Source: Cupriavidus oxalaticus
Lineage (GTDB): Bacteria > Pseudomonadota > Gammaproteobacteria > Burkholderiales > Burkholderiaceae
Reading direction: 5' to 3'
Length of the DNA: 64,000 bases
Assembly: GCF_016894385.1 (NCBI RefSeq)
Contig: NZ_CP069811.1
Span: 1,774,501 to 1,838,500 of the forward strand
Shown: piece by piece, positions 18,142 to 23,623 of the stretch
Numbering within the stretch: the first letter of the stretch is position 1
Layout: each line of letters starts with the position of its first letter
The notes under the pieces: model-generated
Told to the model about the DNA's origin: nothing
Databases searched by the model: none
Seen by the model: only the letters and a program-made list of their open reading frames with translations
Translations under genes and position numbers: made by a program

Positions 18142-19428
18142 CTACTCCTCGCCGCCCCGCCGCATGAAATCCACTTGCGCCGGCCGTCCGGGCAACTGCA
18201 GCGCCGCCGTCGCCGGCGGCGTGGCGGCGATGGTCCTGCCGGCCCGCAGCACACGCAGCCGCGTGGCGCGCAGCCGGATCGCCTCGACCGGGTCGCGCGC
18301 CTGCAGCAGCACCAGGTCGGCCCGGCAGCCCGGCGCGATGCCGTAGCCGTCCAGGCCAAGGATTTGCGCCGGCGTCGCGGTCACCGCGGCAAAGCAGGCA
18401 CGCATTGCCTCCTGCCCTGTCATCTGCGCCACATGCAGGCCCATATGCGCGACTTCGAGCATGTCGCCCGAGCCCAGGCCGTACCACGGGTCCATCACGC
18501 AGTCGTGGCCGAACGCGACCGGCACGCCCGCCGCCAGCAGTTCGGGCACGCGCGTCATACCGCGGCGCCTGGGGTAGCTGTCGTGCCGCCCCTGCAGCGT
18601 GATGTTGATCAGCGGGTTGGCGATCGCCGCGACGCCGGCCTCGCGCATCAGCGGGATCAGCTTGGACACGTAGTAGTTGTCCATCGAGTGCATCGAGGTC
18701 AGGTGCGAGCCGGCCACGCGGCCATGCAGGCCGAGCCGCACCGTCTCGCTCGCCAGCGTCTCGATATGGCGCGACAGCGGGTCGTCGCTTTCGTCGCAAT
18801 GCATGTCGACGCGCAGCCCGCGCCCGGCCGCCAGCTCGCACAGCAGCCGCACCGATTCCGCGCCCTGCGCCATGGTGCGCTCGAAATGCGGGATGCCGCC
18901 GACCACGTCGACGCCCATGTCGAGCGCGCGCGTCAGGTTCTGCAGCGCGCCGGGCGCGCGCAGCACGCCGTCCTGCGGGAACGCCACCAGTTGCAGGTCG
19001 AGGTAGGGACGCACGCGCTCGCGCACATGCAGCAGCGCTTCCACCGCGAGCAGGCGCGGGTCGCAAATGTCGACGTGCGAGCGGATCGCCAGCAGCCCGC
19101 GCGCGACTGCCCAGTCGCAGTAGGCCAGCGCGCGTTCGACCAGCGCCTCCTGCGTCAGCATCGGCTTGAGTTCACCCCACAGCGCAATCCCTTCGAGCAG
19201 CGTGCCGGACTGGTTCACGCGGGGCAGCCCGTACGACAGCGTCGAGTCCATATGGAAATGCGCGTCGACGAATGGCGGCGTCACCAATTGGCCGGCGGCA
19301 TCGATCTCCTCGGCGGCCCGCGCGGCCAGCGCGGGTTCCACCGCGGCGATGCGGCCATTGGCAATGCCGATATCGATGCCGGTGCGCCCGTCGGGCAGGT
19401 TGCAGTGCCGCAGGATCAGGTCGAGCAT
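18142..19428 (-). CDS. codA: Amidohydrolase, cytosine deaminase (CodA) family
   Basis: A 428-residue metal-dependent deaminase closely following E. coli CodA. It has FVDAHFHMDSTLSYG (metal HxH), SHVDICDP, VDMHCDESDDPLSRH (HCDE), NPLINITLQGRHDSYPRRRG and GHDCVMDPWYGLG. The metal-binding Asp (first D of GHD) is kept, but the next position, Asp314 in E. coli CodA, is Cys here. Changes at that site alter substrate choice, so the substrate could be cytosine, isocytosine, isoguanine, creatinine or another ring. It is the last gene of the operon with URC1, URC4, upp and a RutR-like regulator. That context favours conversion of cytosine to uracil. The symbol indicates family, not proven substrate. 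Confidence 0.85.
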   Translation of the reverse strand: MLDLILRHCNLPDGRTGIDIGIANGRIAAVEPALAARAAEEIDAAGQLVTPPFVDAHFHMDSTLSYGLPRVNQSGTLLEGIALWGELKPMLTQEALVERALAYCDWAVARGLLAIRSHVDICDPRLLAVEALLHVRERVRPYLDLQLVAFPQDGVLRAPGALQNLTRALDMGVDVVGGIPHFERTMAQGAESVRLLCELAAGRGLRVDMHCDESDDPLSRHIETLASETVRLGLHGRVAGSHLTSMHSMDNYYVSKLIPLMREAGVAAIANPLINITLQGRHDSYPRRRGMTRVPELLAAGVPVAFGHDCVMDPWYGLGSGDMLEVAHMGLHVAQMTGQEAMRACFAAVTATPAQILGLDGYGIAPGCRADLVLLQARDPVEAIRLRATRLRVLRAGRTIAATPPATAALQLPGRPAQVDFMRRGGEE

Positions 19429-19491
19429 GGCGTCTCTGGATGGGAACGGTTCGGACGAAAAGCACGGCGCATGATCGCATGGCCGATGCGC

Positions 19492-20214
19492 TCACCCCTG
19501 CCTGTCAGCCAGCACCTGCATGGCCATGGCCTCGGGCGCGAGGCCGCAGCCGCGCAGCAGCAGCGCCACCAGGTGCTCGGTCGCCTGCGCATAGTCCTGC
19601 CGCCCCAGCCGGCTCACGCCGAGCACGGCGCAGACCTGCGACTCGAAATCGGCATAGGTCTGCGTTGCGGCCCAGATGGTGAAGAACAGGTGCTGCGGGT
19701 CCACCGGCGCCATCTGGCCGCTGTCGATCCATTGCTGCACCACCGCGGCCTTGCGCGCCACCAGCTCGCGCAGCGCATGGCGCAGGATCTCGCCGATCTC
19801 CGGCGCGCCGTGCAGCAACTCGTTGGCGAACACGCGCGAGGCATCGGGATGGCTGGCGGACAGCCGCATCTTGGCGCGGATGTACTGCTCCAGCGCCACC
19901 TGCGGCGGCAGTTCGGCGCGGATGATATCGGTCTCCGACAGCCACAGCTGCAGCGTGTGGGCCAGCACCGCACGGTACAGCGCCTGCTTGGTGCGGAAGT
20001 AGTAGTGCAGGTTCGACTTGGGCACGCCGGCGCGCGTCGCGATCTCGGCCATGGTGGCGCCGGCAAACCCCGCGCGCGCGAACACGTGCTCGGCCGCGCG
20101 CAGGATCATGGCCTGGTTCTCCTGCCGGATACGGCCGGCGGGACTTTCGTGCGCAAGCGGCGTGCCATGCGCCGACAGCGCCCGCCGCAGGGTGGCGCTG
20201 GCGCGCGGGTCCAT
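19492..20214 (-). CDS. TetR-family regulator, RutR-like
   Basis: A 240-residue protein. The HTH is at about residues 35-80 (FAGATMAEIATRAGVPKSNL, then HYYFRTKQALYRAVLAHTL). The C-terminal ligand domain resembles that of RutR (YcdC), the uracil/thymine-sensing regulator of pyrimidine degradation, including the LWLSETDIIRAELPP region. About 30 N-terminal residues precede the HTH. Its start codon overlaps the upp stop, so the two are translationally coupled. An inverted repeat close to the RutR consensus lies upstream of the first gene of this operon. Likely role: repress the operon until a pyrimidine base is present. This is inferred from homology plus site. Confidence 0.87.
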   Translation of the reverse strand: MDPRASATLRRALSAHGTPLAHESPAGRIRQENQAMILRAAEHVFARAGFAGATMAEIATRAGVPKSNLHYYFRTKQALYRAVLAHTLQLWLSETDIIRAELPPQVALEQYIRAKMRLSASHPDASRVFANELLHGAPEIGEILRHALRELVARKAAVVQQWIDSGQMAPVDPQHLFFTIWAATQTYADFESQVCAVLGVSRLGRQDYAQATEHLVALLLRGCGLAPEAMAMQVLADRQG

Positions 20215-22346: not shown

Positions 22347-23581
22347 TCGTTCAACCCCCTGCCCTTTGCCAGGGCCAGTTCATCGGCATCCGGCGGCGTG
22401 TAGTGCGTAAAGTAGCCCGCCGCCACCTTGGCGTCGATCTCGACACGGGCGTCGGCCGGGATCAGGGCTTCGGGGATCGCCACCTGCTCGACCACCTCGA
22501 TGCCCTGCGCCACCAGCGCGCCATGCTTCATGTTGCTCATCGACGCCCAGCGGTCGATGCGGCGGATGCCCAGCCAGTGGAACACATCCGGCATCAGCTC
22601 CTGGAAACGCATGTCCTGCACGCCTGCCACGCATTCGGTGCGGGCAAAGTAAGTCTCGGCCCGGTCGCCGCCCGCCTGCCGCTTGCGGGCGTTGTAGACC
22701 AGGAACTTGGTCACCTCGCCCAGCGCGCGGCCCTCCTTGCGGTTGTAGACCACCAGCCCGACACCGCCCTGCTGCGCCATCTCGATGCACACCTCGATGC
22801 CATGTGCCAGGTATGGCCGGCAGGTACAGATGTCTGACCCGAACACGTCGGATCCGTTGCATTCATCGTGCACGCGGCAGGCCACTTTTGTCTCGGGCTT
22901 GCCGAGTTGGCTGACGTCGCCGAAAAAGTACAGCGTCATGCCGCCGATTGGCGGCAGGAACACTTTCAGGTCGGGCCGCGTGACCAGCTCGGGGAACATG
23001 CCGCCGGTCTGCTCGAACAGGCCGCGCCGCAACGCGCTTTCCTTGATGCCGAAGCGCGCCGCCAGCCCCGGCAGGTACCAGACCGGATCGACCGCGGCCT
23101 TGGTCACGCGCACGTCGCCATTGGCATAGAGGATGCTGCCGTCCGGCGTCAGCCGGCCGGCTGCCATCGCCGATATCAGTTCGGGCATGTTGATATGCGC
23201 GCGCGTGACGGCGATGGTCGGGCGGATATCCACGCCCGCCGCGATGCGGTCGGCGAAGACCGCGGAAACGAGGTGGCCCCAGGGATCGAGCGAGACGATC
23301 TTTTCCGGATCGGCCCATTGCGGGTGCGGGCCGATGGACTCGGCGGGGGCGGTATCGGTCAGGTCGGGACGATGGTCGCGCTGCAGCGAGCCGCTGGCGA
23401 CCGCCAGTGCGCGGTAGATGGCATAGGCGCCGGCATGGGTGCCGATCACATTGCGCTGCGCGGGATTCGCCAGGCTGGCGATCACTGGCCCGCGTTCGGC
23501 GGCGGTGGGCGCACCCCAGTGGATCGGCTCGGCCGGCTTGTCGCGGCGGGCGTGCGAAGTGAGGACGATATGGTCGGACAT
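22343..23581 (-). CDS. URC1-type GTP cyclohydrolase II-like protein
   Basis: A 412-residue protein starting at the ATG reading MSDHIVLTSHARRDKP; a longer frame upstream runs through the operator and is not credible. The C-terminal half is RibA-like, with the cysteine cluster HDECNGSDVFGSDICTCRPYL and the catalytic GGVGLVVYNRKEGRALGEV. The N-terminal half (residues about 1-190) is the URC1-specific extension, containing RAHINMPELISAM. In yeast URC1 acts on a uracil-derived nucleotide, not in riboflavin synthesis, and a dedicated ribA exists elsewhere in this window. It is the first gene of the operon, 25 bases downstream of a RutR-like operator. Confidence 0.9.
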   Translation of the reverse strand: MSDHIVLTSHARRDKPAEPIHWGAPTAAERGPVIASLANPAQRNVIGTHAGAYAIYRALAVASGSLQRDHRPDLTDTAPAESIGPHPQWADPEKIVSLDPWGHLVSAVFADRIAAGVDIRPTIAVTRAHINMPELISAMAAGRLTPDGSILYANGDVRVTKAAVDPVWYLPGLAARFGIKESALRRGLFEQTGGMFPELVTRPDLKVFLPPIGGMTLYFFGDVSQLGKPETKVACRVHDECNGSDVFGSDICTCRPYLAHGIEVCIEMAQQGGVGLVVYNRKEGRALGEVTKFLVYNARKRQAGGDRAETYFARTECVAGVQDMRFQELMPDVFHWLGIRRIDRWASMSNMKHGALVAQGIEVVEQVAIPEALIPADARVEIDAKVAAGYFTHYTPPDADELALAKGRGLNE

Positions 23582-23605
23582 GGCACCCTCGGTTACCGAT
23601 GGAAT

Positions 23606-23623
23606 CCTGACCAAACGGTCAGG
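23606..23623. promoter_or_regulatory. RutR-like operator upstream of the pyrimidine operon
   Basis: CCTGACC-AAAC-GGTCAGG is a perfect 7-base inverted repeat 25 bases upstream of URC1. The core TGACCAAACGGTCA is close to the RutR consensus TTGACCANNTGGTCAA. Because a RutR-like TetR protein is encoded in the same operon, autoregulated repression is the simple reading. Confidence 0.75.

Follow-up and report, generated by a model that had tools for sequence, protein, structure and literature searches.

What might a bacterium use URC genes for, and which signals would decide when they are expressed? The question is raised by a gene cluster within a 64,000-nucleotide stretch of the Cupriavidus oxalaticus genome (assembly GCF_016894385.1, contig NZ_CP069811.1, positions 1,774,501 to 1,838,500; hereafter the window, counted from its first letter), where homologues of yeast URC1 and URC4 stand together with a uracil phosphoribosyltransferase (UPRT), a TetR regulator of the RutR family and a CodA-type deaminase. 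Our answer, to which we assign a probability of about 0.82, is that this operon would scavenge nitrogen from cytosine and uracil, and that it would be read from a sigma-54 promoter gated by a RutR-like uracil sensor.

A sequence-only reading of this DNA had proposed a bacterial URC operon of five genes on one strand, with overlaps at two junctions. Open reading frames (ORFs) and family profiles bear this out, with matches to the URC1, URC4/DUF1688 and UPRT families. The genes run on the minus strand from 23581 to 18142 in the order expected (urc1, urc4, upp, RutR-family tetR and the codA-type gene), the urc1 stop and urc4 start overlap as ATGA, the upp stop and tetR start overlap as TGATG, and 63 bp separate tetR from codA. 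The extent once given to the operon, up to 23623, also takes in the operator; the longest urc1 ORF opens at TTG 23614, but urc1 probably starts at ATG 23581, the point from which homologues are similar. The sigma-54 element had no place in that reading and was found in the present analysis. The features are as follows.

23641..23656, minus strand: sigma-54 (-24/-12) promoter-like element TGGCATGAACGTTGCC, consensus score 10/11
23607..23622, minus strand: predicted RutR-type operator palindrome CTGACCGTTTGGTCAG, 10/10 core positions
22343..23581, minus strand: urc1, GTP cyclohydrolase II (GCHII)-like protein of UTP-cyclohydrolase type, 412 amino acids (PF12471, GTP_CH_N, 282.7 bits)
21024..22346, minus strand: urc4, DUF1688 protein (URC4/urg3 family), 440 amino acids (PF07958, 470.5 bits, cut-off 25)
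20214..20924, minus strand: upp, uracil phosphoribosyltransferase, 236 amino acids (UPRTase 254.7 bits; TIGR01091 267.9, cut-off 208)
19492..20214, minus strand: tetR, RutR-family TetR regulator, 240 amino acids (TetR_C_3, PF08362, 177.8 bits)
18142..19428, minus strand: codA-type gene, amidohydrolase, 428 amino acids (NF005748 cytosine deaminase 829.6 bits, cut-off 438)

Operator, promoter element and regulator

The palindrome CTGACCGTTTGGTCAG sits 25 bp before the urc1 ATG. It was searched for as TGACC-N4-GGTCA, with 10 core positions, in the 250 bp before urc1 at 96 loci spanning Cupriavidus to the alphaproteobacteria and cyanobacteria; these remained from 110 loci (the window, 29 stretches and 80 further ones) after 11 with identical urc1 DNA and three without urc1 in the stretch had been dropped. 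Where a RutR-like gene is adjacent, the operator is perfect at 45/48 loci and scores 9/10 at the remaining 3/48, and where no such gene is adjacent 0/48 loci reach 10/10, with one at 9 and two at 8. The 1.51 Mb of the 96 loci contain 46 perfect palindromes, of which 45 lie at urc1. The order urc1-urc4-upp on one strand recurs in 91 of the 96 distinct loci and is not due to chance, and in all 48 loci that have the regulator its gene lies behind upp on the same strand. In four Xanthobacteraceae loci (L133, L147, L149 and L155) upp does not follow urc4 but precedes urc1 and is read from the other strand.

Upstream of the operator lies the second element, which was scored against TGGCAY-N5-TTGCW (GG-N10-GC), taken here to be the sigma-54 -24/-12 consensus. 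A match of at least 9/11 is present in 46 of the 48 regulator-bearing loci, compared with about 2.9 in shuffled sequences, and one of at least 10/11 in 45 (about 0.7 in shuffles); it is absent from L103 and L077. All 33 Cupriavidus rows carry TGGCAY-N5-TTGC immediately before the operator, whose core begins 10-20 bp after the element in each of the 46 loci having it. The element also occurs in 8/48 loci that lack the regulator, all of them betaproteobacterial (0.2 in shuffles at that score), and the sigma-54 element is thus independent of RutR. From its position at 23641-23656 we infer a start near 23630; counted from there, the operator would cover roughly +9 to +24. No sigma-70-like site was found in 23560-23830. 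Sites resembling those of NtrC (at least 10/12) are present in 16/48 regulator-bearing loci versus 2.5 in shuffles, and in 2/48 other loci versus 1.5. One of the two loci without the element, L077, comes from the same order and has a long-branched urc1 near the alphaproteobacterial rows, a RutR-like gene, a 9/10 operator and no clear sigma-54 element; the regulator may have been acquired separately there.

The best solved relative of the regulator is E. coli RutR (3loc, E 6.7e-46), whose uracil is held by W77, Y97, W167, Q171 and Q179 according to PMC10891134. The equivalents of all five are identical in the window regulator, and the five together with K52 are identical in 48/48 distinct URC-linked regulators. 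Within the genome of the window (6.69 Mb, two contigs) the operon regulator is the best RutR match at 204 bits, followed by a protein at 70 bits. It nevertheless falls below both curated RutR cut-offs (TIGR03613 204.2/368 bits; PRK15008 180.4/230 bits) and is therefore a RutR-family member and not a RutR equivalog, although the name RutR is already given in databases to some of its close relatives, one from C. pampae being among the matches listed. Control by a RutR relative, as first suggested, keeps the support of the operator, the ligand residues and the co-occurrence, but not an identity with RutR itself, and from these features the RutR relative is the probable regulator of the URC operon. 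The further suggestion that the regulator had been reused from the Rut pathway implies a direction that the data do not give; what they show is that both routes share a regulator family and a type of operator.

A comparison set of ten RutR-family members above 60 bits, one of them the protein of the window, shows how the pocket varies in the family: among the nine others the five residues are intact in five, two have Y97F, one has W77L and the weakest has lost four of the five. One family member (L193:6002-6724) lies near xanthine dehydrogenase-like genes, named by eye, and has Phe at Tyr-97 and Arg at Lys-52, hinting at a purine-linked branch. In L196 a RutR-family gene and an upp-like gene stand 6 kb apart (147-761 and 6720-7340), with no urc1 or urc4 in the stretch examined.

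DUF1688 is present in 8/250 genomes of the order and in 58/60 genomes of the genus, with the genome of the window included in both counts; of the two misses in the genus, one concerns an assembly that is only 54% complete. Urc4 shares 96% identity with a C. necator homologue and 98% with a homologue from Cupriavidus sp. LEh25. Around the operon, 233 bp separate urc1 from the end of a same-strand acyltransferase gene (Acyl_transf_3) before it, and on the other side codA is followed by a tRNA-Leu gene. Elsewhere in the window, an ORF on the plus strand (13896-15614, 572 amino acids) encodes a NUDIX domain fused to a metallo-beta-lactamase fold and its winged-helix domain.

A putative route from cytosine and uracil to ammonia

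The likeness to known systems is to the URC pathway of Lachancea kluyveri (URC1, URC4, URC6) and to the bacterial UTP cyclohydrolase: the operon holds URC1 and URC4 homologues and a UPRT, and urea is the expected nitrogen product. It differs from the yeast in being a bacterial operon with a TetR regulator and CodA, and in the last step, since a urease gene is found here and a urea amidolyase in the yeast (PMC7530994). In the proposed sequence of events, CodA would deaminate cytosine (or 5-methylcytosine), Upp would combine uracil with phosphoribosyl pyrophosphate to give uridine monophosphate (UMP), housekeeping kinases would convert UMP to uridine triphosphate (UTP), Urc1 would open the pyrimidine ring to yield ribosylurea (phosphate) and a C3 unit, Urc4 would free urea, and urease would turn urea into ammonia.

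Urc1 has its nearest solved chains in 7ej3 and 7eev (E 2.9e-190 over residues 3-410), which were deposited under the name GTP cyclohydrolase II. It also gives a weak GTP_cyclohydro2 (GCHII) match of 49.6 bits, and C-x10-C-x-C, presumably the zinc motif of GCHII, is present in 96/96 Urc1 homologues. We take the two structures to be those of the 2021 UTP cyclohydrolase study and the enzyme of that study to be URC1; the products named above for Urc1 are putative. PMC12507026 lists bacterial URC among the pyrimidine routes and cites a 2021 'UTP cyclohydrolase' study for the URC pathway. The chemistry after uracil ribosylation, which had been described as poorly defined, is accordingly less open than was said as regards this step, but the description still fits Urc4, which is without a credible solved relative: a profile search of solved structures returned only DARPins, with a best E of 0.6. 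Yeast URC4 converts ribosylurea to urea, according to PMC7530994, and Urc4 is proposed to be the ribosylurea-cleaving enzyme here. The idea that URC4 might be related to Qng1, a queuosine nucleosidase (DUF2419), was suggested by a motif only and found nothing to build on: PF10343 was detected in 0/398 genomes and in none of the controls, which left no sequence for comparison.

Because the genome has another upp gene, at C2:859937, the copy in the operon may be dedicated to the URC pathway. As for other routes, the sequence-only reading had called for a check for rut or reductive-pathway genes; in the genome the best RutA match is 79.1 bits (cut-off 498.3) and the best match to NF006183, which we take to be PreA, is 34.8 bits (cut-off 335). 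URC is the sole uracil route recognised by these searches of the genome. Urease alpha is present at 978 bits (cut-off 680), and urease could complete the URC route. A reductive pyrimidine pathway was considered and rejected, with NF006183 below its cut-off and with the neighbours of a hydantoinase in the genome being racemase, amidase, MFS and GntR genes. This hydantoin-type cluster (L188:5804-11699; C2:3138803-3144698) comprises a GntR regulator, an Asp/Glu/hydantoin racemase, an amidase, the hydantoinase and an MFS symporter; its hydantoinase matches 'dihydropyrimidinase' models and could pass wrongly for part of a pyrimidine pathway.

The deaminase belongs to the NF005748 family and is in this respect of CodA type, as had been noted, but Cys replaces the Asp-314 specificity residue of E. 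coli CodA. It is under the cut-off of NF006685 (428.3 vs 483 bits), and it belongs to the same family as the solved chains 1k6w (E. coli CodA, 366 bits) and 4r7w (337 bits), the latter presumably a K. pneumoniae protein. GHDDV in 1k6w reads GHDCV in the window deaminase, with Cys-310 at the Asp-314 position, so that the Asp-314 which marks E. coli-type CodA is missing. Within the 96 loci, 47 CodA-like proteins exceed 300 bits; 5/47 end before the site, and all 42 copies covering it have Cys. CodA relatives without Asp-314 reportedly deaminate 5-methylcytosine (Hitchcock et al. 2014), which on the Cys substitution becomes a possible substrate; either cytosine or 5-methylcytosine is possible from the sequence.

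This residue opens an alternative in which the deaminase chiefly converts 5-methylcytosine to thymine and owes its place beside the URC genes to the fact that thymine, too, is a signal for RutR-type regulators; it would then not feed the URC route at all. The uniform Cys in every testable copy speaks for it. However, it is not obvious that thymine could serve as a URC substrate, cytosine may still be accepted by relatives that lack Asp-314, and the gene keeps close company with the operon, lying behind the regulator within 350 bp in 25/48 loci and at 4-5 kb in 13/48 (in 10/48 it is absent from the examined stretch). We regard this alternative as unlikely, though it deserves to be taken seriously.

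The one regulator-codA gap to be annotated fully is that of L088, a copy of a counted locus; 13/48 loci have a gap of such size and the window does not. There (L088:10824-15514) a BMP-type ABC transporter with a binding protein, an ATPase and two permeases lies between the RutR-like gene and codA. The nearest solved structure to its binding protein is an atrazine-binding protein, and the transporter is a candidate nucleobase or nucleoside importer. We take COG1744 to be the BMP group. In a 2025 sigma-54 survey (PMC12316311) the predicted targets include COG0402, the group of cytosine deaminases, and COG1744 is mentioned as well; both entries fit this picture of the operon.

Weighing the nitrogen-scavenging proposal

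In the regulation that we propose, transcription would proceed from the sigma-54 promoter, which would place expression under nitrogen limitation through an NtrC-type activator, and the RutR-like protein on the operator just downstream of the start would block it until accumulated uracil binds the regulator. The gene content, the sigma-54-like element, the operator, their co-conservation, the ligand residues, the lack of RutA or NF006183 matches at cut-off and the urease gene are read from sequence; all of the reactions, the role of NtrC as activator, the position of the start and the uracil-dependent release of the regulator are inferred or come from established knowledge.

Several observations count against this proposal. 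The best NtrC-like site of the window scores 9/12, no better than chance. The whole genome has seven perfect palindromes against eight for a reversed control pattern, which is background. The 48 regulator-bearing loci include 33 from Cupriavidus, and the counts are therefore not independent. The urc1 tree shows 6 changes of the regulator and 5 of the operator, with only one independent pair on starred branches, so that their co-change is not significant by itself. Eight of the nine other RutR-family members have no urc1 or urc4 in the stretch examined around the gene (the neighbours of control loci L194-L198 were checked for the five window genes only), which tells against the proposal in the case of those keeping the pocket; a uracil pocket kept without urc1 or urc4 nearby marks the family and not control of URC. 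Finally, a hydantoinase exceeds its cut-off in the genome (566 bits), and no uracil importer was seen within the gene cluster of the window.

The palindrome count bears on the scope of control: it is the position of the palindrome, and not its genome-wide frequency, that is significant, and the same seven against eight give a wide RutR regulon no support. Two of the six genomic palindromes away from urc1 were inspected using gene models and names by eye; one lies inside a predicted gene (L189) and the other between IclR-like and TctC-like genes (L190), the start of the latter gene being uncertain.

A second alternative retains the URC enzymes but gives them another task, with the operon mainly trimming excess pyrimidine nucleotides, as in control of the UTP pool or in clearing away base analogues. 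The presumed substrate of Urc1, UTP, is central to metabolism, repressors of RutR type respond to free uracil, and the second upp is available for salvage, all of which would suit such a role; the sigma-54 element in 46/48 loci and the urease gene point instead to nitrogen, and the codA partner draws in outside bases, and we judge trimming to be improbable. More improbable still is a third alternative, in which the TetR protein acts on other genes and a different factor uses the urc1 palindrome. The protein does lie under both curated cut-offs, but regulator gene and palindrome co-occur (48/48 vs 1/48), with 6 changes of the one and 5 of the other on a single tree (not significant by itself), no second perfect palindrome exists in the examined stretch of any of the 48 loci, and the palindrome core resembles the E. 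coli rut site, which scores 8/10 in the same way. Nitrogen scavenging under a sigma-54 promoter and a RutR-like sensor remains the reading that we prefer.

Comparison with the rut operon and wider meaning

The closest parallel in regulation is E. coli rutR-rutABCDEFG, which has a sigma-54-like element, a RutR-type site and a regulator of the same family. For example, a full 11/11 sigma-54 match (TGGCATCCGCTTTGCA) begins 44 bp before the rutA start. The rut and urc operons nevertheless encode different enzymes, and the layout differs as well: in E. coli the RutR-type site precedes the -24/-12 element by 64 bp whereas the urc1 operator starts about 20 bp downstream of its element, and rutR is divergent whereas the regulator gene here follows upp on the same strand. 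We tentatively propose, at a little under even odds, that E. coli rut and betaproteobacterial urc, two unrelated pathways of uracil degradation, independently acquired one kind of switch with two inputs, in which the operator lies upstream of the promoter for rut and downstream of it for urc, that the urc regulator would block at or just after the start, and that the deaminase would open methylated as well as plain cytosine nitrogen. The sole basis for a separate origin of the switch is the difference in promoter/operator geometry.

The URC pathway itself is known, and what appears to be new, depending on what RegPrecise lists, is a variation on known control, namely the conserved pairing of a sigma-54 element with a RutR-type operator in front of urc1. 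Leyn et al. 2016 (PMC5343134) counted RutR regulons in 68 genomes from 13 proteobacterial groups, covering pyrimidine catabolism and taxon-specific motif changes. Neither 'urc' nor 'uracil' occurs in its main text, and the tables of that study or RegPrecise may already list RutR control of URC. No paper on such control was found in the literature on URC, RutR, DUF1688 and Cupriavidus, a search whose scope was mostly outside the subscription literature.

If this picture is true, control by nitrogen status and free uracil would track the nutritional task and not the enzymes, with the same logic imposed on two chemically unrelated routes. The URC-linked CodA proteins would form a natural group with an altered specificity residue. 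The operon offers three things that are testable in C. necator, a workable host in the laboratory: a predicted start site, an operator of 16 bp and a predicted inducer. It also opens the URC4 step, still poorly understood, to genetics in a bacterium.

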